From: Adineta ricciae
Taxonomy: Eukaryota; Rotifera; Eurotatoria; Adinetida; Adinetidae
Direction of reading: 5' to 3'
Assembly (NCBI GenBank): GCA_905250025.1
Contig: CAJNOJ010000383.1
Location: 1-64,000, forward strand
Length of the DNA stretch: 64,000 nt
Under the pieces are notes generated by a model, which worked only from the letters and a program-made list of their open reading frames with translations, was not told where the DNA came from and made no database searches. Both the position numbers and the translations under genes were made by a program. Shown one piece after another: positions 7,515 through 53,279 of this stretch (position 1 is its first letter; each line of letters begins with the position of its first letter).

Positions 7515-10500
7515 TTAACACGAAGTGGTGCGTCCTTTGATTGGAATTCCTTGCCAACTAGTTCCTGGGGGTATAATTTCTCCTCGCATTACCAAGCTGA
7601 AAGGTCCTATGTTTGCACGATGACCTATTCGCGTATCGAGAAGTATGATTGACTCACCACCAATGGTAGCTTCACTTTCTATATGCACTTCACCTAGTTT
7701 CATCACTCGATCTTCAAAGAGATGTGTTTGAATGCCAACGTCTGCATCTATTGTGACGTAGTCACCAATATGAACTAAATCAAATTCAGTTATATCTGCC
7801 GTATCGAGATAACATCCTCGGCCGATATGAACGCCGAAACACCGTAGCATGGGAGCTAAAAAGAGAGTGCCTTCCAAATACCCAAGAAATATAGAACAAA
7901 CTATGTCTTCGTAAACTACAGTGATCAATTCCGATATCCATACAAAGGGACTCCACAAAGGATCTTGGCGAATGCGATATTTGCCAATCAATAACCATTT
8001 AAGAACCAAAAAAAATAGAAGTGAAGGAACAGCAAATACCATGATGTACACTATTGGTATTAAAAGAAAGAAGAGATAAACATGGTTGTAGGTTTGACTC
8101 CACACGAATATCTCAAAAGCGATACCAATCTCTAAGACAATCACAACTCGAGGCACAATTACTCGTAGTATGTCGATTATGGATCGTCCAAGAATCAAAT
8201 GTGCGCTGGGACGAAAAGTCATTTCATCCGAAATGTCTGGTGCTACTTGCTGTCGCTTGCTGAGAACGATAGGTGGCGAGCCGACGCAGGATTCACCTTC
8301 TTTCAATCCATCGGCAACTGTTGACATACATCCAATTAGACATCCATTAGGTATTTGAATTCCACTACTTATACATGCTGCATTGCCAATAAAAGTTCGT
8401 TGACCAACGATCGTTTTATGTAGATGAATATAACCACGAGATATGTAAGGATTCGCTAATGTAACTGTATCCGCTACGAAACTTTCATCACCAATTTCCA
8501 CCAACGAATGAACCATTCCTGACGCTGTCGACACTTCGCAACGTTGACCAATTTTCATACCAAATGCTTGAAGTAGTGGCCTAGCATAGACTGTAGCAAA
8601 CAGTGCATATATATTATCTAAAGCTACGTCAAATAATTGATCGAAAATCCATTTTCGCATGAAAGTCCATGATTTTGTGCTGTAGACACCTTCTTTGATA
8701 GAACCAATAAAAATAAATCGTACGATCACGATTTCTAGGATAATTAAACATGTGTAAAGAATGCCCACAACAGGAGAGAAATAAATCACTTGCAGCCAAG
8801 GTGACAAGGCTTTCCATCGGATATAGTCGAAGAAAATAAGACCTGGAAACATTGGAATGAAATTCATCAGAGGCAAAAAGAAGAGAATCAATAGAAGAAA
8901 GATGGATGAAACTAAAATAGACTTCCATTTCTCCCAATTCGATTCCGTAACAATCTCTAATGGGATTCTTCGATGGCAGTATTGTGCTGGTGAACCTTGC
9001 CAGACTTCATCTGCTGGAATACACACACCAGAAGGAAGAAATGACATTGAACCCAATTCAGAATGATCGCCCATGATGCTTTCCCCATTTAGAACACTGC
9101 GGACGCCCACATGAACATCGCATCCAATGGATACTCGACGCAATTTGAGCGTATAGTTGTCGACAAAAGCTGTTCGAATAGCAACGTCTGACGAAATTGT
9201 TGAGCCGTCACCAACACTCAACAGATCTACGACTGAACAATCGATGTCACCAATATGCACATTATGACCAATCTTGGCTCCAAGTAATCGATAGAAAATT
9301 GGCATCCACGGCGTATCGGAGAAGCTGTCAAGTGATGATAAACCGAGGAATTGTTTCACAGTCCACCAACGTACATACATCAAACTCCAGAGAGGAAAAT
9401 CTCCTTCTCGAAAACGACCAATTACAATCCACTTGACTAGAATTGCCAGAAAACTCAGCAGCACCGGAACAATCACATATGTTGCATAGGCAGCAAGGAA
9501 TCCGTATATAAGACCGTAGTTTTCCAAAGCAATGTCAAACATAACGAAAGGCAAAAGTAAATCGACTGCTGTAAGACCAAAAACAATTAGGAGAACAATA
9601 GCCTGGATCAGAGCGCACAGAGCGAGTCGAGATATCGCCGGTTTATCAATGGTCATATCTGAGATAAAGATTTTCTCAGCGTTAGAATTACCGGATGTTA
9701 CCGATAGGCGTTCAGCAAGAGCTTTCGCTGTTTTACATTCGTATAAATCTTGAATTGACACATTTGGAAAAGATTCACGTAATTTGCTAACTGTTTGTGC
9801 TGCTGTTAATGAATGTCCACCAAGATCAAGGAAGAAATCGTTATCTTTAGTTATTTCATTATGCGGAAATGTACTGCGAAATGCGTAGAGAATAATATCT
9901 GCTATGCTCCGAATGTTGGTTTTATTTGGCACTTTTTGCTGTTCTAAAATCAAGAGATATCCTCTATATTAATATTGATCATACTTTTACTTCAACCAAA
10001 CCTTATCTTTACAGAAACTTACTTGGACTTTTTGTTATTTCATTTTTGTTTGGACTGTTTCCTAACGATAAAGAATGAAGTGCTTTACGATCGATTTTTC
10101 CACTGCTCAAAAGAGGCATTTTTTCATCGATTGTAATCAATCGATCCGGGATCATATAACGAGGTATTCTTTTTGTTAATTTCTCACGCATTTTTGCTTC
10201 ACTTAATTCTCCTACAACATAAGCAATAATTTGTTCGTTCTGAACAGTAACAGCAGCTGATTTAACATTATCTTTCAAATTCAATAGCTCTTGTTCAATC
10301 TCATCAAGCTCAATACGGAAACCTCGTAACTTGACTTGAGTATCAATACGTTGGTGGAAAAATATTTGATCATTCTCGAATGTAACTTGATCACCAGTGC
10401 GATACCCGTATTTAGTGAATTTTTCTTTTGTTAATTCACTCAATCCAACATAACCACGCGCAATACCTGGTCCACGAATACATAATTCACCCGTATTTGC

Positions 10501-11230
10501 TGATGTTGGTTGTCCAGTTACTTCATCAAGAAGGCAACAAACGTAATTTGGTAAAGGCCTACCTATACTAATTGGCTTATTCGGATGTACGAGGCTTAAA
10601 GTGGCAGCGACGGTTGTTTCAGTTGGACCATAAGAATTATAAATTAAGCGATCTTCTCTCCACCAACGATCTACGAGTGTCTTGGGAAAAGCTTCACCGC
10701 CGACATTAATTAAACGAAGTTTGAGCGCTGGGTCATTATTCAAGAGAAGTAGTAGAGTAGGCACCGAGAAAAGAGCGGTTACTGAATGACGAATCAGGAA
10801 CAGATNATTGATTTTGAGCGACCGATTGAACATTGAATGATAGTGGATGACTGAAATGGGCTCGAGAATCGATTAAAAGAAGATTAGCTTTGAGATCCGA
10901 CAATACTTCATTAACTCGTTCTTCTGGAATATCGGCATCGAAAGGAACATATGTTGCACCAGTCATTAAAACACCAAGAATTGTTGCATGCAACAACGCC
11001 GATCGGGATAGACAAATGCCCACAATACTACCCGGCCCGATTTGTCGCATATTACGCAGGGTGTGAGCGATATTTAAGGCATGTATGCGTAATTGATCGT
11101 AAGTTATCTCTTCATTTAGCCAACGAAGAGCAACTTTATTTGGATAATGTCGCGCAGAAACAAGAAAAATATCATGAAGATATTCATCTTGTAGTAAATT
11201 GGGACGTTCCGGTCCTGATATTATTGTCAT
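7515..11230 (-). CDS. Pls-like NRPS, copy A: adenylation + carrier + membrane/beta-helix domains, disrupted at a single N
   Basis: Same gene as 34422-38427. Exon 1 (11230 down to 10023) encodes the adenylation domain and exon 2 (9943-7515) the carrier domain (LGGHS) and membrane part. The intron is 9944-10022 (79 bp, GT-AG) and keeps the frame. Start chosen at MTIISGPE, just after a TTTTAG acceptor-like site. At 10806 one N replaces about 291 bp present in copy B (37713-38003). The lost part carries the ATP-binding loop TSGSTGKPK and the substrate helix FDLFLEE, and the frame shifts, so exon 1 reads as two overlapping frames (10736-11272 and 10009-10833). Without that part the enzyme could not activate an amino acid. 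Because the break coincides with an N, an unresolved assembly gap is as likely as a real deletion. Exon 2 is fully open and its differences from copy B are mostly conservative, which suggests it was recently functional. Confidence 0.85.
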
Positions 11231-34260: not shown

Positions 34261-34345
34261 CGTCTGAAATGACAAACTCTTNGGGCGGCGGGGGGGGGGG
34301 GGGCGCTGGGGGTTCCACCCCCCCAATCCCCCCCCCCTGTGTTCG
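34261..34345. other. copy A/copy B junction: single N, poly-G and poly-C
   Basis: A lone N at 34282 is followed by a run of G, a short GC-rich spacer and runs of C, ending at about 34340. The next base pairs start the similarity to 7445. This composition occurs nowhere else in the window and looks like low-quality sequence or a closed gap. The short minus frame across it (34180-34380) is not a gene. Confidence 0.8.
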
Positions 34346-34421
34346 TCACTGTGCCCATGTGACTTTGTGTGCTGGTTCACATTCTTCTTATTTCCTTTTA
34401 TTTTAAATAGTAATCTCTATA

Positions 34422-37400
34422 TTAATAAGAAGTGGTGCGTCCTTTGATTGGAATTCCTTGCCAATTAGTTCCTGCGGGTACAATTTCTCCTCGCATTATC
34501 AGGCTGAAAGGTCCTATGTTTGCACCATGACCTATTCGCGTATCGAGAAGTATGATTGATTCACCACCAATGGTAGCTTCACTTTCTATATGCACTTCAC
34601 CTAATTTCATCACTCGATCTTCAAAGAGGTGTGTTTGAATGCCAACATCTGCATCTATCGTGACGTAGTCACCGATATGAACTAAATCAAATTCGGTTAC
34701 ATCTGTCGTATCGAGATAACATCCTCGGCCGATATGAACGCCGAAACATCGTAGCATGGGAGCCAAAAAGAGAGTACCTTCCAGAAATCCAAGAAGTATA
34801 GAACCAGCCGTGTCTTCGTAAATTACAGTGATCAATTCCGATATCCATACAAAGGGACTCCACAAAGGATCTTGGCGAGCGCGATATTTACCAATCAATA
34901 GCCATTTAAGAATCAAACAAAATAGAAGTGAAGGTACAGCAAATACCATGATGTAAACTATTGGTATTAAAAGAAAGAAGAGATAAATATGGTTGTGGGT
35001 TTGACTCCAAACGAATATCTCAAAAGCGATACCAATCTCTAAGACGATCAAAACTCGAGGCACAATTACTCGTAGTATATCGATTATGGATCGTCCAAGA
35101 ATCAAATATGCGCTGGGACGGAAAGTCATTTCATCCGAAATATCTGATGCCACTTGCTGTCGCTTGCTGAGGACGATAGGTGGCGAGCCGACGCAGGATT
35201 CACCTTCCTTCAATCCATCAGCTACTGTTGACATACATCCAATTAAACATCCATCAGGTATTTGGATTCCACTATTTATACATGCTGCATTACCAATAAA
35301 AGCTCGCTGGCCAACGATCGTTTTACGTAGATGAATGTAACCACGAGATATGTAAGGATTCGCTAGTGTAACTGTATCCGCTACGAAACTTTCATCACCA
35401 ATTTCAACCAACGAATGAACCATTCCTGACGCTGTCGATACTTCGCAACGTTGACCAACTTTCATACCAAATGCTTGAAGTAGTGGCCTAGCATAGACTG
35501 TAGCAAACAGTGCATAGATATTCTCTAAAGCTACATCAAATAATTGATCGAAAATCCATTTGCGCATGAAAGTCCACGATTTTGTGCTGTAGACACCTTC
35601 TTTGATAGAACCAATAAAAAAAAATCGTACGATCACAATTTCTAGGATGATTAAACTAGTGTAAAGAATGCCCACAACAGGAGAGAAATAAATCACTTGC
35701 AGCCAAGGTGACAAGGCTGTCCATCGGATATAGTCGAACAAAATAAGACCCGGAAACATTGGAATGAAATTCATCAGAGGCAAAAAGAAAAGAATCAATA
35801 GAAGAAAGATGGATGAAACTAACACAGACTTCCACTTCTCCGAATTCGATTCCGTAACAGTCTCTAATGGGATTGTTCGATGGCAATATTGTGCTGGTGA
35901 CCCTTGCCAGGCTTCATGTGCTGGAATACACACACCAGAAGGAAGAAATGACATTGAACACAATTCAGAATGATCGCTCATGATGCATTCCCCATTTAGA
36001 ACACTACGGACGCCCACATGAACATCGCATCCAATGGATACTCGTCGAAATTTGAGCGTATAATTATCGACAAAAGCTGTTCGAATAGCAACGTCCGACG
36101 AAATTGTTGAACCGTCACCAACGCTCAACAGATCTACGACTGAACAATCCATGTCACCAATGTGCACATTATGACCAATCTTGGCTCCAAGTAACCGATA
36201 GAAAATTGGCATCCACGGTGTATCGGAGAAGCTGTCGAGTGATGATAAACCCAGGAATTGTTTCACAGTCCACCAACGTACATACATCAAACTCCAAAGA
36301 GGAAAATCTCCTTCTCGAAAACGACCAATTACAACCCATTTGACTAGAATCGCCAGAAAACTCAATAGCACTGGAACAATTACATATGTTAAATAGGCAC
36401 CAAGGAATCCGTATATAAGACCGTAGTTTTCCAAAGCAATGTCAAACATAATGAAAGGCAAAAGTATCTCGACTGCTGTAAGACCAAAAACAATCAGGAG
36501 AACGATAGCCTGAATCAGAGCGCACAGAGCGAGTCGAGATATCGCCGGTTTATCAATGGTCATATCTGAGATAAAGATTTTCTCAGCGTTAGAATTACTG
36601 GATGTTACTGACAGGCGTTCAGCAAGAGCTTTCGCTGTTTTACATTCATATAAATCTTGAATTGACACATTTGGAAAAGATTCACGTAATTTGCTAACTG
36701 TTTGTGCTGCTGTTAATGAATGTCCACCAAGATCAAAGAAGAAATCGTCATCTTTAGTTATTTCATTGTGTGGAAATGTACTGCGAAATGCGTAGAGAAT
36801 AATATCGGCTATGTTCCGATTGATGGTTTTATTTGACACCGGTTGCTGTTCTAAAATTAAGAGATATTCTCTATATTAATACTGATCATACTTTTACGTC
36901 AACCAAACCTTATCTTTACATACACTTACTTGGACTTTTTGTTATTTCATTTTTGTTTGGACTGTTTCGTAAGGATAAAGAATGAAGTGCTTTACGATCG
37001 ATTTTTCCACTGCTCAAAAGAGGCATTTTTTCATCGATTGTAATCAATCGATCCGGGATCATGTAACGAGGTATTCTTTTTGTTAATCTCTCACGCATTT
37101 TTGCTTCACTTAATTCTCCTACAACATAAGCAATAATTTGTTCGTTTTGAACAGTAACAGCAGCTGATTTAACATTATCTTTCAAATTCAATAGCTCTTG
37201 TTCAATCTCATCAAGCTCAATACGGAAACCTCGTAACTTGACTTGAGTATCAATACGTTGGTGGAAAAATATTTGATCATTTTCGAATGTAACTTGATCA
37301 CCAGTGCGATACCCGTATTCAGTGAATTTTTCTTTTGTTAATTCACTCAATCCAACATAACCACGCGCAATGCCTGGTCCACGAATACATAATTCGCCCG

Positions 37401-38427
37401 TGCTTGCTGATGTTGGTTGTCCAGTTACTTCATCGAGAAGGCAACAAACGTAATTTGGTAAAGGCCTACCTATACTAATTGGCTTATTCGGATGTACGAG
37501 GCTTAAAGTGGCAGCGACGGTTGTTTCAGTTGGACCATAAGAATTATAAATTAAACGATCTTCTCGCCACCAACGATCTACTAACGTCTTGGGAAAAGCT
37601 TCACCACCGACGTTAATTAAACGAAGCTTGAGGGCTGGATCATTATTTAAGAGAAGTAGTAGAGTGGGCACCGAGAAAAGAGCGGTTACTGAATGACGAA
37701 TCAAGAACAGATGAAGACAATCAGTATTCAAAACATCTGACTTCGCAGCAATAACCATGGTTGCACCCGCTAGGTAAGTTAAGAAAGTTTCTTCAAGAAA
37801 TAAATCAAATGCTGCTGAAGAGCCCTGATAAATAATGTCATCATGTTTAATACTTAAAACTTCATTATCAGCACGCACAAAATGGCAAATGCTTTGATGA
37901 GTAATTGCAATTGCTTTTGGTTTTCCTGTTGATCCAGATGTACAAATGATATATGCAATTGACTGATTGTCAATTTGATCTTTTAGATTAATATCAATCA
38001 TTGATTGGTTTTGAGCGATCGATTGAACATTGAATGATAATGGATGACTGAAATGGGCTCGAGAATCGATTAAAAGAAGATTAGCTTTGAGATCCGACAA
38101 TACTTCATTAACTCGTTCTTCTGGAATATCGGCATCGAAAGGAACATACGTTGCACCAGTCATTAAAACACCAAGAATTGTTGCATGCAACAACGCTGAT
38201 CGAGATAGGCAAATGCCTACAATACTACCCGGGCCGATTTGTCGCATATTACGCAGAGTATGAGCGATATTTAGAGCATGTATGCGTAATTGATCGTAAG
38301 TTATCTCTTCATTTAGCCAACGAAGAGCAACTTTATTTGGATAATGTCGCGCAGAAACAAGAAAAATATCATGAAGATATTCGTCTTGCAGTAAACTGGG
38401 ACATTCTGGTCCTGATATTATTGTCAT
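34422..38427 (-). CDS. Pls-like single-module NRPS (candidate poly-lysine-type synthetase), intact
   Basis: Exon 1 38427-36930, intron 36929-36851 (79 bp, GTAAGT...TTTTAG, phase 1), exon 2 36850-34422: 1308 residues. Adenylation domain (1-490): TSGSTGKPK (163-171), NSYGPTETT (295-303), GELCIRGPG, YRTGD (373-377), LRGFRIELDE and SSGKIDRK with catalytic K475. Carrier domain: LGGHSL with phosphopantetheine Ser544. Then six membrane segments in three pairs, each pair followed by a left-handed beta-helix-type soluble domain (hexapeptide patterns such as IGDYVTIDADVGI). No condensation or thioesterase domain. This layout and the ~1300-residue length match bacterial Pls, where the three C-terminal domains join the monomers. 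Specificity positions D208 L209 E212 F251 I271 V273 S296 V304 A305 K475 resemble a lysine code. Start chosen at MTIISGPE; TTTTAG two bases upstream may be a cis- or trans-splice acceptor. The membrane location is inferred; the product is untested. Confidence 0.93.
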
Positions 38428-39035
38428 ATCTAAAACAGATAAAATACTGATGCTCAATATTGAAAACATGAATACAGGAAATGGAAAATGGCAATCATAC
38501 GAACTTCATCAGTGTTTCTCACAATCTAGGATGTGGAAGTGAGCATTAGCCTAGGAGAAACGTTGGTTTGTTTAGTCTATGGTATTCAACTAGTAACAAT
38601 GGTTTAGTATCACTCGAGAATATATTTAAGAGCTGTATGCATGTGCAGTATTATATGCAGTTGCTAAGTAAATGTATGATTGTATATACTAATCACACCC
38701 TCCATTTGACGCCTCTTAACGAAATGACTAACTTCGTTAGAGAAAAGGAATGAAGTAATGTGTCTATAGACATAAGCATGCGTACTATGCATGAAAAAAC
38801 ATATCGCCAAACCTACACAAAACGCTTCGTAGGCGTTAAATAGCTTAGGAGTGTAGCAACATGTTGGACAATGGCAATGAAAACTTGAGATATTAGCGTT
38901 TGACATTATCAGTACAGCCATAGATGCACTTGCGCTGTTCATTGTTATATTACTCTTAATATCTCGTGTTGACAGTTTTCATGAGAAAGGCTTGAAACAG
39001 AACAATATTTTTCCTAATCTGCAGAAAAAAAATCC
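38428..39035. other. upstream region of NRPS copy B
   Basis: Counterpart of 11231-11842. A minus frame at 38664-38942 (92 codons, MNSASAS...) is diverged from that in copy A and ends differently; I do not count it as a gene. The empty insertion site of the copy-A MITE is at about 39024-39038. Confidence 0.4.
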
Positions 39036-41659
39036 AAATTGATTAGATATTGCTGTGTACTGAACTGAATAAAAGCAGCGAACTGAGTTAGCTTATGCAA
39101 GTATTGAGCACTATGCACATGTTTCTGAAGAGAAATGAAGGGATTTTTATCAAACACGCACCCTCGCGTGTCTCATTGTTCAGAGATTATTCCTGATGAT
39201 ATTATTTCACCTTTTCTCTGTCTATGATTATCTTGTGTTAACGATTGTTCAATCAATTGTTTTGACTTCAAGACGGTCGAGGAAATGAGTTGTCGGTCAA
39301 GTGAACCAGACGCTTCGCTTATTTTATGTTCTTTAAGCTTCTTAAATAAACGCCTAGTCGGTCGGCCACTCACGGCTAGCCATTCCAGTGCGTACGCATT
39401 TTACTATACTAACTTCATTTGAACGAAGATGTTATCTACAAATGAGGTCATTTCATAAAATCAATTCATAATCGAAAGCTTATAAACTTTACATAGGTAT
39501 ATCATTCTCTGCAAACAGATTTCATTCTTCCCTTCACCACGAAGAACTTTAAAAAGCTGCCAAATATGTTCTTGGAGATCAACGATTAAGTACTACATCT
39601 AAAAAATCTTAAGACTTATATGAAAATCTGTTCTTTAAAATATTATACTTCAAATCGAGGACTGGTCGCTGGTCGATCACTCGCTGCTCGCTGCTAGCCG
39701 TTACATGTACATTTTCGCTCTTTCACCTAATCTAGAACCACTTTCGAAAACAACACTTGGCAAAGGAAACATTATTTTGACTGACTTGCAGCAGATGATG
39801 TTTCTACAATATAGCTGTTTATACAAGTGTCTGATCTCAGTAATATGCTGATGACTATGGGGATCCAGCAATCGGCGCAAGTCAGCTATAAGATTTTGTT
39901 CTACATATTACCGCTTAAAACATTATCGTTTACAAAAAGTGATCCTGTGTCGGAAAAAAGGAGACAGAAAGCTTTTATGAAAAAACTAACCTTGGATTTG
40001 AGTTCCCCGACCTAGATTACTGTTCGGCCAATCCTTACTACCTACATTAATAATTCATCCCTAATTAGTCTGCAGGTAACTAATTCTAATAAATAGTTTA
40101 AAACTTACCCCAGATTCCAGTTCCTCGACCACGATTATTTATCTAGTAGTCGATTTCTAGCTGATAAGGGTAAATTTCGATGATTTAAGAAATCCTTATT
40201 TCCTATTGGCTTGTACCAACAAACTTGTACCGATTTTTGACGCAGCTATAACCCTTTCTTTCAGAAAGGGAATATCTATGAAAGCTAATCTGATTGAGAA
40301 AAATCCGTTTAATTAGAAAGACAGCAGATATTTGAAAATCTTCCTACTGCGCTTAGGAATAATACGGCGCGACGGCCAGTTGCCCTCTACTAAATATATT
40401 ATCAGCTCCTCTGTGTTTCTCAAGTGACAAATAAAACCTGTTGCATTTCAATGATCTATCCATCTCATAGTTTGTTTGTCTTTCACTCATGCCCATTTCA
40501 TTTGCTAAAACACTTCTCATACAAACGCCTAGTCGTTCCCATGACTATCCCTACTATGCCTTTCACTTTTGATTAATTCTCAAAATGACCGACTACGTTT
40601 CCCGTCATTCTGGCTTTTAAAGAGTATCCATCATAGTGCCTAATATGTTCAAATTAGTATTTGCCTGGTCGTTGTCCCTATAGGTAATAATATAGAACTA
40701 CACTCGCGGTCATACTTTTGGAGACCCACTTCCACTAAAATCTTATCGAAAGACAGCACGTGTCGCAGCGTGGAAAAAAAACTATATTAACTTCATACTA
40801 TTTCTTCTGATATCTTAAATTGTAAATATCATCACGTGAGATATGCCAAAGTCTTTTGGTGCAAATGTCTAAACAACTATCTTCGCACACATTTTGTGGC
40901 AAGCATGGACAAGCCAAGTCCAAAACTGTATAAATATATCCAAGTGTTTTATGCAGCTTAGTATTAATTTTAGGGCTAAAAGTATTAAAAAAAACTTTAA
41001 TTAACAACCATAGAAGAACTTATGGAGTGAATTGACGCCAAATATGGGAAGTGAACTCGATTTTTGTCTTGACTCAAACCAGATCAAGTTGATCTTCGAC
41101 CTAATTTCAAGTTAAATCAGGTCAAGTCGATCTTCGACCTAATTTCAAGTTAAATCAGGTCAAGTCGATCTTCGACCTAATTTCAAGTTATTTGTGACTC
41201 GGCTTGAGCTATGACTTGAATTCGAAGATTTTTATATGTGACTTAACTTGGATCAAAAAGCTGATGCCTTGCACATGCCTGCCTTATAGTGACCAGCCAA
41301 GATTATCCTTCTCTTTTTCGTTCTTCTGATACACTGATGCAGAAAGACGAAAAACAAAAGAACATTCTCGGTTGTACTCCATCATACCCAGCCATAGTGC
41401 TTAACCTACTATATCCGACACAAATATTTAGCAAAGATTCAGAAACATCTGTTTTGAAAAGAGGTAGGAAGAAGCCGCACCTCAACGAATAAAGAAAAAC
41501 TAACAGCAGATTCAGGATCTCCGACCTCGATTGCCCTTCGGTCAAACCTTAAGATGATCATCTGTGTTTCATGTATATACTATTTGAACGAAATAAAACA
41601 ACAGCCGAACGAACTTTAACTCAAATTCTATGTATATCCTCCTTTCAGTAGAGGGAACA
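39036..41659. other. copy-B-only block without recognised genes
   Basis: From about 39160 to 41650 nothing matches copy A. Frames are short and unconvincing. The block contains a 38-bp tandem repeat (41081-41190). A GCTGGTCG/CGCTGCTCG-rich stretch near 39665-39705 vaguely recalls the GGTCG/GAGCGACTAGCC sequence near 145-185 and may be repeat debris. Confidence 0.5.
41081..41190. repeat. 38-bp tandem repeat, about 2.9 units
   Basis: Units starting at 41081, 41119 and 41157 share AGGTCAAGTCGATCTTCGAC followed by CTAATTTCAAGTTAAATC. The last two are nearly identical and the first has a few changes. Each unit contains the small palindrome GTCGATCTTCGAC. Non-coding. Confidence 0.85.
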
Positions 41660-42054
41660 TGCAAAATGAGCTCGGTACTTGATTTTTTGAGAAAGAAGAC
41701 AGATGAAAATCGTGTGCACACACCACTCGTCTTATATCAAAAGGTGGTTGTTGATATTCTGTAGGTATTCATGGTACAAACTTTTTTTCTTACGCGCTAG
41801 GCGGGTGTGGGCGATGCTCCGCCGGCTCCAAATTGGCAGCGTACCGAGCAGCAGAGTAATGCACAGATGCAAGCATACGGCTCATCTATAGGTACATTAT
41901 GTAAGCAGCAGTCCGCAACTCAATTTTCAGCATAGCTACAAATGCAAAATAATTCTTTATGATCGATTATTTTTACTGCTATGTTTCTGAGTATCGAAGA
42001 TTACAGAAAGATTAATATCTGTTTCTATATCACTGCTTATTTCTTTGTCGAAAG

Positions 42055-43018
42055 GAATCATGATGGGTGGGCTATAAAAAATGCCCCTCGCAGTATTTTG
42101 CATTTTTCTCACCTATAATTCAAGTTAGAAAACATTATTTTTCTATAGAAAGATTCCTCGTGAAGTTCTCTACAAAATCATAATTAATCTTACATTTATA
42201 GAATGTAAGAAAGAACCGTTAAATAAAAAATACTGCGAATATAAAATGTACCTCACTTGCAAAAGGAGAAAACGTCAGGCAAGTGACTAATTTTATGAAT
42301 GTTTTTTTTAATCGTCGACCGTATATATTCTCAATAAAACTATAGCATAGAATGCAGCGTGAAAACCTCTATCAGATGCATTCATTATTAAATTTAGTTT
42401 ATATACATGCTTTCTATTTCCCAAATGGTGCGCAGATATTTTTCGAGTTTTCAAGAATGATCATGTTTTCGTCAAGTAGGCCATTGTGCAATTTAAAAGC
42501 AATTGATGTATCAGCATAGAATGACTTGTTATGCAAATTGTAAAGCTTTTCAAGACTCATCTGGCGATTTATTCAAATTTATTGTTTTATAAGACATCAT
42601 GTAGAATAAAGATGAAATTAGAATAAGGAATTTCGAATATATATACGAAGAGATCTCTGGTAAACTAGAAAAGTAAAAAGCGCATGCGTAGACTAAAACT
42701 AATGGTGAATCTTGTAATTAGAAATTTTTACGCTGCATCTTTTCATGTAATTTATTATTGAAAGAACGCAAGAAAAAAGCGCTGATCATTTGTAAAACAG
42801 TTGTTAGCTTTAAAGGTGAGGTGCATTTTATGTTCGCAGTATTTTTAATTTAACGATTTTTTCTTACATTCTACAAATGTAAGATTAATTATGATTTTGT
42901 AGAGAACTTCACGAGAAATCTTTCTATAGAAAAATAATGTTTCTAACTTGAATTATAGGTGAGAAAAATGCAAAATACTGCGAGGGACATTTATTTACAG
43001 CCCACCCATCATGATGAA
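42055..43018. mobile_element. foldback-type element with ~210-bp inverted arms, copy B
   Basis: Counterpart of 13635-14613. The outer ends ATCATGATGGGTGGGCT and AGCCCACCCATCATGAT are perfect inverted repeats here, better kept than in A. Inner arms share CTCACCTATAATTC and the GTAAGATTAATTA region. No open frame in the centre. Confidence 0.8.
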
Positions 43019-44926
43019 CTCGAAAATATACAGTAGTGTCAAACTTGAAACTTGAAACTTTAATTCAAGTATTCTAAGTATTCAACTATTTGCGCACCCG
43101 TCCCACACCCTTACTTTGATATTGAAGGTTGTGAGGGTGGGTGAGGGTGTGAAGACATGAGGACGTGGGTGAACATTGTTAACATTCGGATATCATCTAA
43201 ATCGACACCTATATCCTCAGCTTTGCACTAAAAAATAGTTTTTTCGAACAAAAATCATCAACATTTTCAGCTAAAAAGAGGGCGCTGAATAAAAAATTAT
43301 GATATCTGAAAGAGCTGAAGATGGGCTATCTTCTCATGCATTTATCTTAATTTCCAGAGTTTTTACGAAAATTGACTTTTTTGAGTGAGGGAGGGGGAGG
43401 AGGAGGGTAGGTGGTGGCCTATAGAAAACATACGAAGAAAGATATGAAACGAGAATATATACGGAAATTATGAACATAAAGCATGTGTTATTTATAAGCT
43501 CATTATATTTTCTCTGAAAATCAGAGAATCTGCCATGGCATGCATTTTTTAGATATAAAGCTTACACAAGCCTGTATCGCTGATGCAAAAAGTCAGCTCA
43601 TTTTCTGGAACCATAATGTAGACATTCCACTGTTATGATTCAGTTGTGTTAATTATGGGCCACCCTCGCTATTATGGCATTTATTTGAAGAGTAAACAAT
43701 GTTAGAAAAGCCAATTTCATCATCATTTTCTAAGAGTAAAAATAACGTCACGCAGAAAGTTTTATTTTGTGTCATTTTTTCCTGGGGCAGCTGTAGCTCA
43801 GCATCTGCTGTCATATTGTTTATTATGAATTTTAAAAAGGAAATTATTTAATTTTTAGTTATAATATTGCATCTATAGAGAATCTTTAAGAGCACATGGC
43901 ATCTGGAAATTATTATCTGGATAAATACAATTGTGAATTTCCTAGAGAGTTCCGAGAAAAACCTTGTCATCAATTAGATGTGTATCGTTTACATATTTAC
44001 TATCATTAAAATGAGAGCGATGTAATGTATTTCTATATATGGTCAACCCTTTTGAGGCGATTCAATTTTTTTTAGAAAGTAGCTTAAATTTATTAATTTT
44101 CACGTATACTTATCATCTATAAATACACCTGTTAGTTTTCTGAGGGTATATAACCATATGTTTCTCTTTGTCTAGTTCTCATGCATATATGAAGAATTGT
44201 CGTTTTCATTTTATTGGGCAGTTACTGAAGTTTACTATTCTTCGTGCTTAGCTTATGCGATAGAAGCGAGACAAAAAATGAAATTTCATTTTTTCCGTTT
44301 TAGATTCCTTTTGTATCATTACTTTCCACTCTTCTCCTTAAATGTATTAAAAGAATTAATTTCTTTGAGTTCATCTAGATGTTTTATGGTGAGATGTCTT
44401 TTTCTAACAAATACAGTTTACTTCATGCCACTTGTTTCTCTGTTTCTCAATGAACTTCATTATCTCCTGAATGTGTTTCTAATGATATCCTGTACTAGAT
44501 ATCTTAAATATTCTCTGTTTCACTTCGATATATCTTTCCTAATATCATTCCTTCTTGATATCTCATGTCTGGATTTCTTTCTACGTATATCACCCTCTAT
44601 ACCTGGATAACTGTCCTAAATATATATAGTTGGTATTTTTCAATAAGTATACATATCGTTTTCTTTTGTTCTTTTGAAAATTATCAAGCGCACAGTATGT
44701 CGACTTAAGAAATGTCATCTGAAGAAGTCAACAAGGGCAACAGCGAAAACTCACTGATCACCTGCTCGAAGACCATGTGTCCGTTGCTATGAAAAGACTA
44801 GACAACAACAGTCAAGATAAACAAGTGCAATAACAATAAAGAGAGTAAAAACTTGCTGTCCTAATTGTGATAGTTTTTTTGCGTTGCTTGTTTTAACGAA
44901 AAGCATTTCTCTCCGCAATAGAATAG
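43019..44926. other. copy-B-specific spacer with one dispersed repeat
   Basis: About 43035-43130 carries the third copy of the inverted-arm repeat found at 6320 and 15160 (TTCAAGTATTC, TATTCAACTATT, then GATATTGAAGG). G-rich simple sequence lies at 43130-43165 and 43384-43415. A 137-codon plus frame (44197-44610) is hydrophobic low-complexity sequence, and I do not call it a gene. Confidence 0.5.
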
Positions 44927-45132
44927 TGTAACGACAAACTGGTTGAGTAGCTGACCGCTTCTCACGGTATCGATGTTTATTGACTACTCTACATGACCAG
45001 AATGTATCTCTTTCACAATAAGACAAGCGCTTATATAGAGAAGAGGAAAGAGAGAAATGACCCGGAGATAGTATGATATAGAGGTGAGAGAATAAAGAAC
45101 AGAAGGAGATGAACGATATCATTATCGTTACA
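44927..45132. mobile_element. solo LTR, 206 bp, with AATAG target duplication
   Basis: Nearly identical to 20945-21150 and of the same length. It begins TGTAACGACAAACTGG, ends ATTATCGTTACA and is flanked by AATAG on both sides (44922-44926 and 45133-45137). The different target duplication shows an insertion separate from that in copy A, although both lie in the non-homologous middle blocks. The bases GTCGACTAGT follow soon after both copies, which I cannot explain. Confidence 0.85.
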
Positions 45133-45137
45133 AATAG

Positions 45138-46340
45138 GTCGACTAGTGATGTAGACGGAGTAAATGTAGCACTAATTGTCACTTTCTGTTTTGAAAAAAA
45201 AATGAAAAAGTCGATTTTGTAAATGATTTTCTTGTTAAAATACAGTGTGAGCCACCGGTGACCCACATCGCCTCGAAAGGGTTAATTTTTGCTGGGTTAC
45301 CCATGAAAACATCAGTTATGCAACAAAACAGAATTGATATTGTCAAAGTAAGATGATGGAGAGAAACTAAGACAAGATAATCTTTAAGATCCAGCCTGAT
45401 ACAGGAAGTATCATTCCGAAAACAGAACACAGCTGTTCTGTTATCGGGATGGTACTTACGGGCTGTGAGCGCTTTTGTTGTGTTTTAGGAGCAAAAAATC
45501 TGTAGATAGACAATTTACGATGTTCTAGAAAATGTTCGTCAATAAGAATAAAGCATTTGTACTATGCTATTCTAAAAATTTGCAGTAACGTGTTGGGTTC
45601 ACTTCCTACGACCTTTAAATCGCGATATGAATGGCCGTAAAATTAAGTGGTTCAGATGCAGTCCCAGTTTCTAGCGATGTTAGAAAGCCGTCATAATTAA
45701 CGTGTTCCTACAGCACGGAAAACCATGGTATTTATCATAAAATTTTCTTGTGAGGGTCATAGTAGATTTTTGGGTAATCTACTCATTTATGTTTATTTCT
45801 TGAAATGCGGTGTATCAATTCAAGACCTTCTCGAAAGAATTTATGAATGCATCGATTTTTCTCTCATGCAATCTTTCTTAAGAATATAACATAAATGATA
45901 GATAGAATTTTGTTCTGTTCTGCTTATGAGTGCAAGAAGAACGGCATGAGTTTTTTCATTCATTGCTGATTAATACTTTGGCTAAACTTATGTGACTGTA
46001 CGTTAAAATTAATCATTTTTTATGTTTTATTCGACACTAAAAGAAATACGTTGAGTTTGTACCTTGGCAATGGCTCCATTTTTTTTCCTTCTCAATCGTT
46101 CAGTGTATTCATGATTGAAAAAGAAAACAAATCGAGTGAAAAGAATGTGACCGTAACTATAACTACAAATAAACATAAAAAGAAAACTGACGCTGAAAAG
46201 AGGTAAAATTTACAAAGAATTTATTCTTTTTTTCTCACAAGAAAAAGTCCAAGTAAAATCCAACATTTAAAGTGAATGCCTTTCAATGTTAAATATTCCT
46301 CGGAATTCAAAAATAAATTCATCGATTAATCTCATGAAAT
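45138..46340. other. spacer, hairpin repeat and fucosyltransferase upstream region
   Basis: 45407-45456 is the 50-bp imperfect palindrome matching 25061-25110, and similarity to copy A resumes there. The remainder is the 5' region of the fucosyltransferase. No gene seen. Confidence 0.5.
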
Positions 46341-48604
46341 ATGTTCATTAATAAGAATAAATCTCGTCGAAAACTTTTGTTATATTTTATTTGCTTAAGT
46401 TCATCGCTTCTTTTCATATGTTATTATTCAATAATAAATATTTTTCAACCATTCATTCCTAAAGTTCGTATTCGACCTGAAAGGAAAGATCCGTTTAAGA
46501 AAATCTTTATTTCGCATTATACAACAACATATGGAAAACGAACTGATTCAAAATCAAAACTTTTCAGTAACAATTTAGAAAATATTTGTGCTTTACTTGA
46601 TCCAGAAGAATATCCATATGCTAATGCAGTTTTTGTTAGTTTAATTGATTTAGTTCATTTACCAACTTTACCGAATACAAATGAATCTTATAGAAAAAAA
46701 TATCAATCCCAATTCTGGTTATTACATACTGAAGAATCTCCGAGGAAATCTTATGAAACAGTTCAATTAAATGATATTACAGATCTTGATGATTGGTTTA
46801 ATTTAACAGCAACATTAAAGCCTGAATCAGATATTCATATTCAATATAAAGTACGTATCTTTTTATTTTTATAGTATAGCATTGCTTTAAACGAAGAAAT
46901 AATATGAAATGAGGAAAAAGTGAAGAAAAACAGCAATGTCGAGTGTCGTGCGATCAAATGTTGAAATAATAGAATTTTATACCGAGAAGAATAAGCAATG
47001 ACATATTAGACAGTTCATAGTAACCCATTCATAGAAATGCTAAAGCTAAAATAATAAGATAAGGAATATTCAATAAAAACATAATGAAAATAATCAATGC
47101 TGCAATCAGGAAAAAGATAATAGACGATTGTTCATTTCATTTCAAGTGAAATCAACTGTCATTTTGCATTGGCAAATCTTTTTCCATTGAACTTTTACTC
47201 TGACATTTTGATCTTGGTCAATCTTCTTTTAGTAAATTTCACACATCTATCCGATTGAATCAGAGATAAAATATGACTTTGTCTCGAGTACATTTAGTAA
47301 TTATTAGATTATCTCATTTTTATTCTTTCTATTCAATATTCGTTTCTGTGAATTTTTCTCGAATGGAAATGTCCGCTCATCAGTTAAAACATTATTGATT
47401 ATTTACAATTGAAGTGTTGAGGCGAAAATTCTTTAAAAGAATGAAAAGTATTTAAATGTGCAAGAATTTTTGCTATTTAACAGTATTTCAACATATAATG
47501 AAAACGTTTTGTTCAGATAAATAAAAATCTTCTGTTTTATGTTTTTTTTAGGGATATCGAATTAAACCTGAAATAATCAGTTTTCTCGAGAAGAAATTAA
47601 ATAAAACATATCCTCGTACAAATTTTTCTCAATTTATTCTTAAACAAGATTTCTTTGAAAAAACGAATTCATCATATATGAAAACACTTGCAAATGTTTT
47701 AAGCCATGAAATTAATCTTCGACAAGATCATTATGCAAATGCTTGTCCGTATACTTGCAATACACCTTTATCAAATGATCTAACAGTATATCTTCAACCA
47801 TATTTAAAGCCAAGAAATTTTCAAATGAAAAATCGAAATATTGTTTATATCGCATGGTTCGTATCAAATTGCAACACTCATTCCAATCGAGAAGAATATG
47901 TTTCAAAATTACGATCACAAAAAGGTATTCAAATTGATGTATTTGGTTTTTGTTCATCGTTCTTTAATTCACGTCGTGTGTCAGAAAGATGTCGAAAAGG
48001 AATACCGAATTGTACTTTAGATATTTTAACAAAATATCGTTTCTATTTATCATTTGAAAATTCGAAATGTGACACTTATATTACTGAAAAATATTGGATA
48101 AATGGACTTAATCAACATGCTGTTCCAATTGTTTTAGGAGCTTCAAGAGAACAGTATAAACGTATTGGAGTACCTTATTCATATATTCATGTTGATGATT
48201 ATCAATCAGTTGAACAACTTGCTGAAGAACTTCATCGGTTAAATCAAAATGATTCAGAATACATGAAATATCTTCAATGGACACAATTATATGATGTTGG
48301 AAGTGATTATATGCCTACGATATTATATGATATACATTCGACACTTTGTTTTCTTGGTCACTATCAGCGTTTATATGAAATGGGAAAAGTAAATCAAGAA
48401 AGTAAATATTTACTTGAATTAATTCGTTACTTATTTTCCATAAAAAATATGACTTTGAAGAATTTTAATTGGGATACAGCAACAACAAAAATAATTAAAA
48501 TTAGTGATTTTTATAATCCAAAAGTTAATTGTTGGGATTATGATTATCCATCAATCTTTAAAAGAATTTGGAATTTCTTTTCTATTTGGACAAAGCTATT
48601 TTAA
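46341..48604 (+). CDS. GT10 alpha-1,3-fucosyltransferase-like enzyme, copy B
   Basis: Exons 46341-46850 and 47552-48604 are joined over a 701-bp intron (GTACGT...TTTTTAG, phase 0) to encode 520 residues, as in copy A. The intron is longer than in A partly because of about 140 extra bases near 47380-47520. The signal anchor, the FENSKCDTYITEKYW donor-binding signature and VPIVLGA are unchanged. About 4% of residues differ from copy A, mostly conservatively, so both products are probably functional type II Golgi fucosyltransferases. Confidence 0.9.
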
Positions 48605-49798
48605 TTAATTAGTTTTATTTGAAAACTATTTTGTTTTTCTTTTGTTAATCAAATGAACATCTTATTTCACAAATCAAACTTTGTAAAAGGACATTTATGA
48701 TATGCCGATTACTCATAGTGATATTTATTCCTGCTATTTTCATGAATATCTCTCATACTCGTAGGAAAGATTAGATTTTATTCATTAACACAATTCAATA
48801 GTGCTATGTAGGGATCAATGCCCATTAAAATACCTCAGCGTATTACTTCACTTGTCCTTGGGACGAGTGTAATGATTTTTTCTTTCATAATACTGGATCA
48901 TTAAGAAATGGTCTATGCAAAATAATTATAATTGAAAGTCTTATAAAGAAGTGCAAACGATAGGTCAAAAAGTAATGTAATAGTTGTCAATGCAGAGCTA
49001 TTTATGGCAAAAGCAAAACCGTTGAAGAACTTCCAAATAATGCGTTTTGTAGCCCTATCGAAGGGGCAGTTTCTGACAAAGTTTGATGAGTGGATGTTTT
49101 TCCTGAGACAGACACAATTCATCACGCTGAATCCATGGTTATCGCTTTTAATACGAAAACAAAATGAAACTGATCCGAAATTGTCTTCTTCGTGCTTCTT
49201 ACTACTGTATGATTAGAAGCGTTAAGTATAGGATATGTTAACCTGTCAAAAGCCCTACACAACCATACAAAAAACTGTTTTATTTCATTTTTCGAAATTT
49301 TATAGGGAGCCTACCAATCAGATATTTATCGCTTTTTTATTTTTTTTCGTACGATAGTAAATCGATCATAAGTCCCCTTAAGTACTTCATAGATTAAACT
49401 TATTATAGACTGTTCGACGCACCTTGAATAGCTCTACAAGATGGCATAGATACCTTCTCAATCTGGGATATATCGTCTTATCCGACAGAGCCCTTTCATT
49501 GATATTAGTTGATAAAAGCCTTGGTTTTTTGTATGAAGGGTTTCTTTGTTTATTTTCCAAGTACAATCGTTACGATGATTCAATGATTCAGAAGGTAAAA
49601 TAATAGCTAAGACGTACGTGATGATGAATGAGAACGTCGAAATCATGACTAAGTGACTATCATATTATCGGGCCATGCGTTAATCCTTTTATGATTTTCT
49701 TTATTATTTCCTTTTTGGCTCACGTTTATTAGATAATTATAAATCGTATCGTTTAGTATTATATAGGCATCTTATTTCAACATATTCAAGGAGAAATG
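48605..49798. other. intergenic with second copy of the NHL-like fragment
   Basis: Conserved with 28169-29392. The NHL-gene-like fragment recurs at about 49405-49500 on the minus strand, in a frame (49458-49646) that is shifted relative to copy A and stops early. This argues against a protein gene here. No other gene seen. Confidence 0.5.
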
Positions 49799-50074
49799 AT
49801 GAATACAATGGGATTAGACAAAGCGGTTCGTTCATCGTCAACTTTTCAACGATTTCTTCACTGGATCGAGGATAAGAAAAAATATGTCGATGAATTCTCA
49901 GATAAACTAGGAACAATAGAAGAATTCGTTGAAGTTATTCGAAATGTAATACAAGGCAATATTCTAAATCTATCGTGCTGCTTCTGTTTTGGTATAACTA
50001 TGACAATATCTGTTACAAGTATTGCAGTTGGTGTTGGACTTGGAACAGGTATTGGATGTTTTCAAAATAATTAA
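49799..50074 (+). CDS. small glycine-zipper membrane protein, copy B
   Basis: 91 residues (MNTMGLDKAVRSSS to CFQNN), the counterpart of 29393-29668 with only about ten changes. The zipper SIAVGVGLGTGIG is unchanged. ATG at 49796 lies directly upstream in frame, so either could serve; the second is the one shared with copy A. It converges on the gene at 50188. Confidence 0.65.
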   Translation: MNTMGLDKAVRSSSTFQRFLHWIEDKKKYVDEFSDKLGTIEEFVEVIRNVIQGNILNLSCCFCFGITMTISVTSIAVGVGLGTGIGCFQNN

Positions 50075-50187
50075 AACTATTCCAACTAGCATGAAATTTA
50101 GAATTGTTATTTAATCGATATTTTTCGAATAAATTACATGTTTAAATTTGAAAAAACTCTTTATTAGTCAAATTATCAGTCATAAGA

Positions 50188-50638
50188 TTATCCAATTGAA
50201 ATAGTCGAGACCTCGACTATACTAGTAGTGCTATTTGTAGTATTGAACAAAAATTCCGCAGCTTTATCACAATTTAATCCAACACCAACACCAACCCCAA
50301 CTCCAATTCCAATAGAAATTCCAATACTAATTGTAGCCATAGAAATTGATAGACATGAGAAAGGATTCAAATTAAAAAAATAGCCTAATATATAAATCGG
50401 TATTGTCATTGATAGATCGTAGATTGTACCAATACATTCTAATATCAAAATAAATATTCCCCACCGAGAAAATTCATTTCCAAACCTTCCTTTTTTCGTT
50501 GGATATACATCTTTCAAACGAGTCATTATACTTTCTATATAAAATAATAAAAAAACATCGTTACAAATAACTCTATTTGATATCTTTACCTCTTATATTA
50601 AAAATCTGGCCAATACACTCGAGAAAAGCTTCTGCCAT
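50188..50638 (-). CDS. small two-exon glycine-zipper membrane protein, copy B
   Basis: Exon 1 50638-50590 (MAEAFLECIGQIFNIR) and exon 2 50534-50188 are spliced over a 55-bp intron, with the same phase as in copy A, giving about 131 residues. The membrane parts (RWIGIFILILECIG-type and SISIGIGVGVGVGVG-type segments) are strongly conserved, while the basic loop (KDVYPTKKGRFGNEF) and the polar C-terminal tail vary. This pattern fits selection on the membrane part. Confidence 0.68.
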
Positions 50639-51046
50639 TAGACGAAATTGAAAAAAGAATCAAATACACTATTGACTATAACGCTATTCGATCTATCATT
50701 TATACTAGTCACAGAAAATATCGTTCTACACGAATTACCTTTATATGCGCTGTGTTTGTTATGATAGACAAAACGGAAGTACAGAATATCGAAATATTTT
50801 TCATGATCTTATAGATTTCAGATTGATGAAAGTCTAGAGAATAGAAGTTTTTTTAAAGTAATTGTTTTTTCCATAAATTATACATGAAATCTAGACCATA
50901 TAATTTTGAAAAAAAAAGAATTTAAAATGCAATCTTTTTCCTTTTATAAAGAAAGTAAAAGTGAATAAAGCATATCTTTGATGACGTCCTTTGAATAGTT
51001 TCTTTTAAGAATTTGAAAGAAAGATTCAAATATTAACTTTTTTAAA
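50639..51046. other. spacer, no gene recognised
   Basis: Counterpart of 30235-30632, AT-rich. Should hold the promoter of the minus gene. Confidence 0.5.
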
Positions 51047-52162
51047 ATGCAACCAATAGATGAGATTGTTAGTTCAGGTCGCCTGAAACATTTTGTTGAA
51101 CAACGTCGTCGATCAATTGTAATTGATTATTTAATTGCAACATCAACACACGTGTTACGAAGTGTCGGTTGTACTTACTCGAAACTCAATCAATTTTTCT
51201 GGATATGTTCATTTATGATAACATTTGATAGCATGTCTGATTTTGTTATATCATCAATTTTACAATACTATGCATATCCAACACTAACAAAATTTGAAAT
51301 TCGGCTCGATCGTCATATGTTATTACCTTCTGTAAAACTGTTTGTAGTGGAAATCCTTATCGTTATGATAAAATAAATCAATCATTAGCTTTATATTTCT
51401 ATCGTTTTAGTTCGTCGAATGCAACATTTCATCAAACTATTCTCAATTCATTATACATTCCATTAATTATTGATTTATTTAGTCGAAATCAAACAAATGA
51501 ATTACTATTGGAAAACATCAAGAACAGTGTTTACTATAGGTGATTGGGGTGATTCACTTATTGACCAAGAAGGTTTATCCTTATAGCTTTATGTTCCACA
51601 AGAACTCTTTTTCTCTTTTAACGTACTTACGAATGATGAGAAACTTATTTTTGCTAAACATGAATTATTGTCTAATGATTATCTACAATCAAAATTGTGT
51701 TCACGATGTGTATCATAATGTAAACATAAATTTTCAAAGATCTATCAGTGCATTGGGCATGCGCACCCTTCGATGGTAATAATGAATATTAGCGAGGATT
51801 AATCTTGAATAATTCATCGAATATCAGTGTTTTACTGCCGAGTGATAGTGCACAACGTTTTGATTATTATTTTGATCAAAATTATATGAAAGTCCAAATA
51901 TCGTGTGGTAGTAAATATACTATCGAATATAACCAAGAAACTAAATTAACATTTATTGATACTTTTTCTGCCATCAGCGAACAAAAGGATTGTAAATGTA
52001 GAAAAATGAAAATTATTCATATTTTTATTTCAATGGATTGGATTGAGTGTTTTAAGTGTCATTGAGTTATGTGAATTAATCTGTCGACTTTTTCATCATT
52101 CTATCGTTATACACAAAAATAAAGCAAAGTCCACTGTAACACCAATGACAATGATAAAATAA
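51047..52162 (+). pseudogene. DEG/ENaC sodium-channel gene remnant, copy B
   Basis: Begins MQPIDEIVSSGRLKHFVEQ and carries the first membrane segment (FFWICSFMITFDSMSDF), YYAYPTLTKFEIRL and FRSSNATFHQ-like parts in shifting frames. It then has LNNSSNISVLLPSD and the second membrane segment RWIGLSVLSVIELCELI near 52030-52085. The extracellular domain is largely gone, as in copy A, but a stretch near 51500-51790 differs from A, so decay has continued separately. Confidence 0.78.
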
Positions 52163-52276
52163 TTGATCCTTCTCATTAATTTATACTCCCTAATTAAATA
52201 TCATTCAAGCTGAATTTTAAATCGCGTTTTCTTTTATTTGTTAATTGTAGAAAGGAAAAGAACATAAATAGTTCGT

Positions 52277-52771
52277 TTATTTTCCATTTTGAAATCGTTC
52301 TTTCATTCGGTTAGAACCACGAATACAGTTGTTACACAAATAACTATAATCTTTGCCACCCGCTTTTACTAAATCACCTAATCCTACTGATTGAGATCCA
52401 GCATTCACGGGAGAACCATGTGGTTTCCATTTACTTGACATACGCGTACGTTGTGTGTCAACAACAACTGTCTGAGAATTGTGACCAAAACCAGGTCCTT
52501 TATGAACGAGAAACTTTTGACCATCTTGTAATGTTGCTACTTGACCTCGATGATTAATACCGATTTTATCCAAATGTTTGGCAATATCAACACCATATAC
52601 TGGTTTGATGTCTAATGGACGACGATATTCTTGAATTGATTGTATTCGTTGATTGTATAAACCGTTTAAAGCTTGTTGATTATGAGTATGAGGATATCGT
52701 TGCGATTGGAAAAACGCCTGGCTCACTGTTGATACAACGAGCAGAAGCGTAAATGTATAAACCAAACCCAT
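52277..52771 (-). CDS. secreted papain-fold-like (permuted NlpC/LRAT-type) protein, copy B
   Basis: 164 residues, the same start, signal peptide and length as 31728-32222. The His block (VHKGPGFGHNSQTVVVD) and the NNC block (YLCNNCIRGSN) are kept. In copy B an extra Cys appears before NNC while the one after it is lost. This reciprocal change is consistent with only the NNC cysteine being essential. The function remains an inference from the H...NC order. Confidence 0.72.
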   Translation of the reverse strand: MGLVYTFTLLLVVSTVSQAFFQSQRYPHTHNQQALNGLYNQRIQSIQEYRRPLDIKPVYGVDIAKHLDKIGINHRGQVATLQDGQKFLVHKGPGFGHNSQTVVVDTQRTRMSSKWKPHGSPVNAGSQSVGLGDLVKAGGKDYSYLCNNCIRGSNRMKERFQNGK

Positions 52772-53279
52772 TTGGAACAGAATAGATGTAATATTATTTA
52801 AAATATAATTTTACCTGCCAGCTATTTTTCCTTACTACAAATACATGGAAAGAGTATTCTTCTTATATACCCTATGCCCTATCAATACTTCCTCTTCTAT
52901 ACAACAATTTATCTTTGATAGTTCCTCGCTAAAGTATTGACCTTTTACTTCCTTTATGATAGAATAAGTGCCGAACTATAAACATGATCGATACGTCAGT
53001 GTATGAAAACTGATTCTTGTTCTATAACGACTAGAGATGCATCAATGTAGGAACACGCACTATGCGGTAGCATGTGTCCTTCGCAATTTTCTAGATAAGA
53101 ATAAAATTTCCAACATATTCATTCATGATTTCTTTCAAATAATTAAGCAGATAAGAAACCTATTTTATCATTGCTGTCTACAAGTTAAGGAAGAAAAAAT
53201 ATCATTCGAACATAGTTACCCGCTGAAATCTTTACATATCTGTCCTTTCTAGAATTAGTGAAGACTTTTTGAGATATCA
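52772..53279. other. intergenic, conserved with copy A
   Basis: Counterpart of 32223-32799. No gene seen. Confidence 0.5.

Follow-up and report, generated by a model that had tools for sequence, protein, structure and literature searches.

An intron-bearing gene at positions 34422-38427 (minus strand) of a 64,000-nucleotide stretch of the rotifer Adineta ricciae (contig CAJNOJ010000383.1 of assembly GCA_905250025.1; this whole stretch is hereafter called the window) encodes a protein of the Pls/PosA family, to which the synthetases of epsilon-poly-lysine and delta-poly-ornithine belong. On balance, and judging from its sequence, we favour the reading that the protein is a cationic homo-poly-amino-acid synthetase of this kind, acquired horizontally long ago and now a spliced animal gene, whose product would most likely be delta-poly-ornithine or a close diamino polymer. 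This gene is referred to as copy 2; copy 1 lies in the same window at about 7515-11230, and the exons of both are given in Table 1. The assembly that was searched comprises 130 Mb in 1033 contigs, numbered C1 onwards, with the window on C383.

Domain architecture and family assignment

The spliced copy 2 protein was scanned against Pfam and matched five families at E <= 0.001: AMP-binding (4.1e-68), PP-binding (9.7e-10), Hexapep, LbH_EIF2B and AMP-binding_C, the last two under their curated cut-offs. It has one adenylation (A) domain and one carrier (T) domain, with Ser544 being the serine of DLGGHS, and no condensation or thioesterase model is found among these five families. The best NCBIfam match was TIGR02353, the C-terminal domain of Pls/PosA, which covers residues 612-1301 (E 1.9e-163) with model positions 2-695 of 695 and scores 545.5 bits against a curated cut-off of 423.1. 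Matches to TIGR02353 under this cut-off were not considered as family evidence, since 13 of 14 control genomes match too, one of them over the cut-off. With a hydropathy threshold of 1.5, six strong peaks appear in three pairs (608-626/656-674, 841-859/894-912 and 1091-1109/1128-1146), in the same places as in PosA of Acinetobacter baumannii; three weaker peaks (69-87, 242-260 and 1184-1202, with values of 1.62-1.71) also lie above the threshold. An earlier, sequence-only reading of this DNA had described a Pls-type protein of 1308 residues with one A domain, one carrier, six membrane segments and neither condensation nor thioesterase domain, and this description is upheld by translation, Pfam, hydropathy and the TIGR02353 score.

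A profile of the C-terminal family was made from 37 of 41 candidate rows (L060, which has a stop inside, L036, L097 and L100 were left out) and compared with solved structures. It matched beta-helix proteins, namely beta-helix transferases and carbonic anhydrases, with 88 distinct chains at E <= 0.01 and a best value of 1.5e-11. The matches fall in three separate stretches, at about positions 114-244, 351-498 and 611-709 of 710.

The motif QTHLFEDRVMK is intact at residue 1238, and the protein retains 85 of the 91 columns that are invariant across 84 relatives as well as 139 of the 154 nearly invariant columns (90%). When relatives were left out one at a time, the lowest retained 85% and 90%, and all others 95.6% or more. 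Both the motif and the retained columns argue against the explanation that the fold was kept while its chemistry changed, such that a single residue is moved to a lipid, sugar or amine without formation of a polymer. This explanation can call on the long stem branch of the animal rows in the phylogeny described below and on a large, divergent A-T-membrane family without QTHLFEDR in the same genome, from which it follows that the lineage allows such change; we consider it improbable.

Gene structure, copies and residence in an animal genome

Joined, the exons of copy 2 give 1308 open residues and a stop codon. Read without splicing, the first frame (open reading frame 36916-38469) stops within the intron region. 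An AATAAA lies at most 124 bases 3' of the stop codon, but the surrounding DNA is AT-rich. Upstream, a TTTTAG adjoins the start codon (38428-38436, minus strand) and a second in-frame ATG is found at 38469; therefore the N-terminus of copy 2 may be longer, or a 5' exon may precede it. In copy 1, a single N at 10806 replaces 291 bases that correspond to 37713-38003 of copy 2. Copy 1 is not whole in the assembly and is not countable as a second intact gene, hence the term intact, used for the gene in the sequence-only reading, applies to copy 2 with its open 1308 residues but not to copy 1.

Four copies in the genome score over the TIGR02353 cut-off, namely the two in the window and two on the 914-kb contig C12, which are 28 kb apart and one of which has an N in its A domain. 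A fifth copy, on C356, scores 371 bits and has a stop inside. The 79-bp intron is common to both window copies, with 73 of 79 bases identical. In the paralogues C12b, one of the C12 copies, and C356, the adenylation domain is interrupted by a 61-bp intron, which in C12b is in phase 0, and their coding sequence is uninterrupted where the window copies carry their phase-1 intron. With two kinds of introns at two places in the paralogues, introns were therefore gained or lost after the gene entered the lineage. For the ratio of nonsynonymous to synonymous substitution rates (dN/dS), the two window copies, compared over 805 codons of exon 2, give 0.214, the two C12 copies 0.15 over 1013 codons, and the window gene versus C12b 0.18 over 1302 codons, with saturation at synonymous sites (2.05). 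The genes are under purifying selection.

Wnt, an animal family, has 20 matches in the assembly and none in the 14 prokaryote control genomes. Since Wnt genes are present the genome is that of an animal, and since a canonical intron occurs in two copies, with another intron in the paralogues, the gene is a resident eukaryotic gene; the sequence-only reading had stated as much on both counts. Bacterial contamination or a dead gene could be argued from the relatives found outside this genome, which are prokaryotic or viral only among the best 80 of 570, and from the N inside copy 1 and the stop inside the C356 copy. Against this stand the canonical introns, two kinds at two places, the length of the contig that carries the C12 copies, the Wnt genes and the dN/dS values of 0.15-0.21. 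Contamination and decay of the gene are unlikely, and we give this explanation virtually no weight.

Blocks 7445-33623 and 34351-54071 of the window are 86-96% alike over seven aligned pieces. They are separated by a single N at 34282, beside G-rich low-complexity sequence, and may represent either haplotypes joined in the assembly or a true tandem duplication.

Relatives and phylogeny

A scan of a genome collection identified 570 relatives, the best 80 of which were kept. Of the 81 loci fetched, the code table and the trees exclude seven that lacked a long frame, and three of six extra plasmid loci likewise had no frame. Among the best 80 of 570, the nearest relatives are enzymes of Chitinophaga, Mucilaginibacter, Azospirillum, Sphingomonas and planctomycetes, at 34-37% identity. 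The ornithine-code genes of Chitinophaga, Mucilaginibacter and Sphingomonas, with pocket DMEHNGS/TVS/TK, are the closest overall in this set (up to 37.3% identical); they are uncharacterised, intronless and bacterial. Besides the animal rows, the tree comprises bacteria and one viral contig. The label bacterial, given to the gene beforehand, is to be qualified, as fungi and protists, which are absent from the tree, also have members of the family (PMC10522769, PMC7179176).

A careful tree was built from 36 of 87 aligned rows. The three animal rows form one clade (100/100) with a stem branch of 1.17 changes per column, and the sister of this clade consists of 11 Bacteroidota-type rows, one of which is a planctomycete (L079), with ornithine-type pockets (92/87, below the star of the tree tool). 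A 23-row clade (100/100) takes in the animal rows, the Bacteroidota-type rows, A. baumannii PosA and the rows with a DLEDI code. Outside this clade lie the lysine-code Schlesneria rows and the single row for Streptomyces Pls, which has a long branch (2.53), an exclusion that is seen in the 36-row tree and was left open by a quick 53-row tree. In the approximately unbiased (AU) test, uniting the animal rows with Streptomyces Pls and two planctomycete rows of lysine code was rejected (p-AU 0.00087), which is weak evidence as the Pls row and the two planctomycete rows are themselves not monophyletic. The test also rejected uniting the animal rows with just the A. baumannii PosA group (p-AU 5e-5). 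In the 36-row tree the animal rows appear beside ornithine-code rows and not, as the kinship with epsilon-polylysine synthetase proposed beforehand would have it, with Streptomyces Pls. The gene would go back to an old horizontal transfer.

Among the relatives, L109 (IMGVR_UViG_3300031372_000055), a 23.8-kb contig filed as viral, encodes a full-length protein with the PosA pocket code DMEHNGTVSK. In Sphingomonas (L022, NZ_CP155753.1) a phosphopantetheinyl transferase gene and then a GNAT gene directly follow the relative, and a phosphopantetheinyl transferase gene also follows the relative in Rhizobium (L027).

Substrate pocket

The pocket was read by alignment in PosA numbering; so read, the PosA reference is DMEHNGTVS, as published (PMC10522769). 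The window code is DLEFNGSVAK, and both paralogues, C12b and C356, have DMEFNGSVAK. All of these keep the Asp of position 1 and the Glu of position 3, both of them essential in PosA (PMC10522769). Position 2 has been tied to the length of the side chain, with Phe for diaminopropionate (Dap), Met for ornithine and Ala for lysine, and replacement of Met by Ala in PosA raised lysine use about 10-fold (PMC10522769); here it is Leu (window) or Met (paralogues) and not the Ala of lysine enzymes. The window code is identical at 7 of 10 positions to DMEHNGSVTK, the most frequent code among the fetched relatives, at 6 to PosA and at 5 to Streptomyces Pls; for the paralogue code these numbers are 8, 7 and 5. 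Hence the PosA-type code DMEHNG(T/S)V(S/T)K is matched at 6-7 positions by the window and at 7-8 by the paralogues, position 9 being without hydroxyl. PosA is also the best match of the substrate lobe among solved A-domain lobes, with 204.6 bits (8g97) versus 122.1 for epsilon-polylysine synthase (7wew). The codes of the relatives are DMExN in 69 of 84, DAESI and DFE in four each and others in seven; this make-up is not a census, because the relatives were chosen by likeness of their C-terminal domain to the window protein and the patterns used to search for candidates were derived from an alignment that included two ornithine-code bacteria.

A number of residues and scores weigh against ornithine or against a PosA-like enzyme. 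Ser313 of PosA, the loss of which cost 183-fold in that enzyme (PMC10522769), is Ala in the animal protein, while Thr304 is Ser and His260 is Phe, and all three animal rows have Ala in place of one A3-motif glycine. The window code shares 7 of 10 positions with DLEDIGSVVK of Azospirillum, equal to its share with the ornithine-type code. When the whole A domain is scored, the DLEDI type, of unknown substrate, is highest (maximum 370 bits, four relatives); the maxima of the other types are 353 bits for DMExN (median 325), 333 for DLEDL and 300 for the lysine-type DAESI.

The lost Ser313 contact, the shared code and the top scores of the Azospirillum enzymes, together with the report of a family member that activates arginine (PMC10522769), speak for a homopolymer synthetase with another or unknown diamino or basic amino acid as substrate, e.g. 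that of the DLEDIG type, 2,4-diaminobutyrate, or arginine or an analogue. However, position 5 is Asn as in PosA and not Ile, the paralogue code agrees at 8 of 10 positions with the ornithine type versus 6 of 10 with DLEDIGSVVK, and the DLEDI group sits with PosA (100/100), apart from the animal rows. We regard this alternative as unlikely, albeit one that should be kept in mind.

The name epsilon-polylysine synthetase, which the sequence-only reading had given to the gene on the assumption of lysine as substrate, is not supported: lysine as default substrate was rejected on the basis of pocket position 2, the lobe score and the tree. That the enzyme is nevertheless an epsilon-poly-L-lysine synthetase would agree with its architecture and family, which are the same, with the Asp and Glu suited to a basic side chain, with the L-lysine bound by PosA in a crystal (8G98) and with the epsilon-polylysine made by a fungal member (PMC7179176). 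Given the Leu or Met where Ala would be expected, a lobe score of 122 versus 205 bits and the rejected clade with lysine-code rows, we hold this to be rather improbable. On the pocket and domain comparisons ornithine is the more likely substrate, followed by another diamino or basic amino acid and, in third place, lysine.

Proposed mechanism and significance

For the preferred ornithine-type synthetase, the A domain would adenylate a diamino acid, most likely L-ornithine, to the aminoacyl-AMP and load it onto the carrier arm. By analogy with PosA, the three-lobed membrane/beta-helix domain with its QTHLFEDRVMK motif would have the side-chain amine attack the thioester of the growing chain repeatedly, so that delta-poly-ornithine or a closely related short isopeptide polymer could be formed and possibly released at or across the membrane. 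The ACPS/phosphopantetheinyl-transferase family is found at two places in the genome and the arginase family has 10 matches; arginase-family genes could supply ornithine. Use of the polymer in defence against fungi is a fair guess, and its acting against fungi or bacteria would be a further one. It is conceivable, though we would stop short of calling it probable, that one foreign enzyme enables the animal to make a cationic isopeptide homopolymer, delta-poly-ornithine or a relative of it, for a chemical defence distinct from both peptide immunity and the bdelloid condensation-domain genes for nonribosomal peptide synthetases (NRPS), and that a second, larger A-T-membrane family grew from or beside the same foreign fold.

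A working enzyme would mean that a side-chain-linked polycation is made non-ribosomally by an animal cell; antimicrobials of this class have so far been credited to bacteria and fungi in the cited literature. Since a single gene without helpers is involved, the claim is unusually easy to test.

Comparison with known systems

PosA, the delta-poly-L-ornithine synthetase of A. baumannii (PMC10522769; PDB 8G95-8G98), shares with the animal protein the layout of A domain, T domain and three membrane pairs with beta-helix parts, these being predicted in the animal protein, as well as a diamino pocket that has Asp and Glu and, at position 5, Asn. The two are 34% identical by one alignment and 33.8% by another. 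In addition to the three replacements mentioned above, Met218 of PosA is Leu in the window protein, and the animal gene, unlike PosA, bears an intron. Streptomyces Pls, the epsilon-polylysine synthase (PDB 7WEW), shares family and layout at 31% identity, but has the pocket DAESIGTVVK with Ala at position 2 and is distant in the tree. Epls, the epsilon-polylysine synthetase of the fungus Epichloe festucae (PMC7179176), is likewise eukaryotic, has the same domains and a proven product; a lysine pocket and 51% identity to bacterial Pls are reported for it, and its likeness to the animal gene is by description.

Bdelloids have many NRPS genes (PMC10531068), and Nowell et al. 2024 (PMC11258130) report activation of genes for NRPS and polyketide synthases (PKS) in bdelloids attacked by fungi. 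These multimodular genes are, like the present one, foreign biosynthetic genes kept by animals, but the sets were defined by antiSMASH (PMC10531068) or by the condensation domain PF00668, required in the screen of PMC11258130, whereas the present gene has no condensation domain and would make a homopolymer, if anything. Because of that requirement the 'three-domain' set of PMC11258130 could not include this type, and searches of such design have a blind spot for it.

Members of the Pls/PosA family in Metazoa have already been published (PMC10522769), hence the occurrence of this family in an animal is, as a class of finding, no longer new, although enzymes of this kind have received little attention in animals. 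The terms rotifer, Adineta, Rotaria and animal are absent from the main text of that paper, with Metazoa species being listed in its supplements. Literature searches found no publication that joins a rotifer term with a poly-lysine or poly-ornithine synthetase term, and none with both 'epsilon-poly-L-lysine synthetase' and 'bdelloid'. The gene structure, the paralogues, the selection and the substrate reading are new as far as these searches show.

Other observations in the genome and window

A second family was encountered in 12 of 14 examined loci (L112-L116 and L119-L125, on contigs C145, C509, C644, C926, C43, C363, C297, C368, C615, C548, C110 and C247), the longest frames of which are 30-62% alike. 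The A domain, the carrier (LGGTS) and membrane/hexapeptide parts are matched in pieces, without the QTHLFEDR motif, and TIGR02353 scores about 56-121 bits, well under the cut-off. Glu is found at pocket position 3 in three of the eight loci with readable positions 1-3. One locus of this family was compared with plasmids and gave four weak matches only.

Table 1. Coordinates of genes and gene parts in the window.
Feature	Position	Strand	Evidence or remark
Copy 2, exon 1: adenylation domain and start of linker	36930..38427	-	M1 at 38427; spliced translation, Pfam, NCBIfam
Copy 2, intron of 79 bp, GTAAGT...TTTTAG, phase 1	36851..36929	-	GT-AG ends; in copy 1 too
Copy 2, exon 2: carrier with Ser544, three pairs of membrane segments (six in all), three predicted hexapeptide/beta-helix regions and the stop codon	34422..36850	-	Translation, Pfam, NCBIfam, hydropathy, profile
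Copy 1, exon 2, open	7515..9943	-	dN/dS 0.21 vs copy 2, 805 codons
Copy 1, intron, same 79 bp	9944..10022	-	Matches copy 2 intron
Copy 1, exon 1, interrupted by single N at 10806 (assembly gap)	10023..11230	-	Comparison with copy 2
Open frame of 455 residues, PF02458 'Transferase family' (5.3e-21)	18667-20034	-	Pfam
Tc/mariner-like transposase, open, 349 residues, PF13358 and PF01498	22363-23412	+	Pfam; first block only
Split fucosyltransferase-like gene, PF17039 then PF00852	26039-28168	+	Pfam; first block
Fucosyltransferase-like gene, repeat in second block	46341-48604	+	Second block
Sulfatase, PF00884	56907-58550	-	Pfam
DUF4246 protein (3.9e-122), function unknown	59689-61386	+	Pfam

We take PF02458 to be the family of the BAHD acyltransferases of plants and fungi, and the frame that matches it is possibly another foreign gene.

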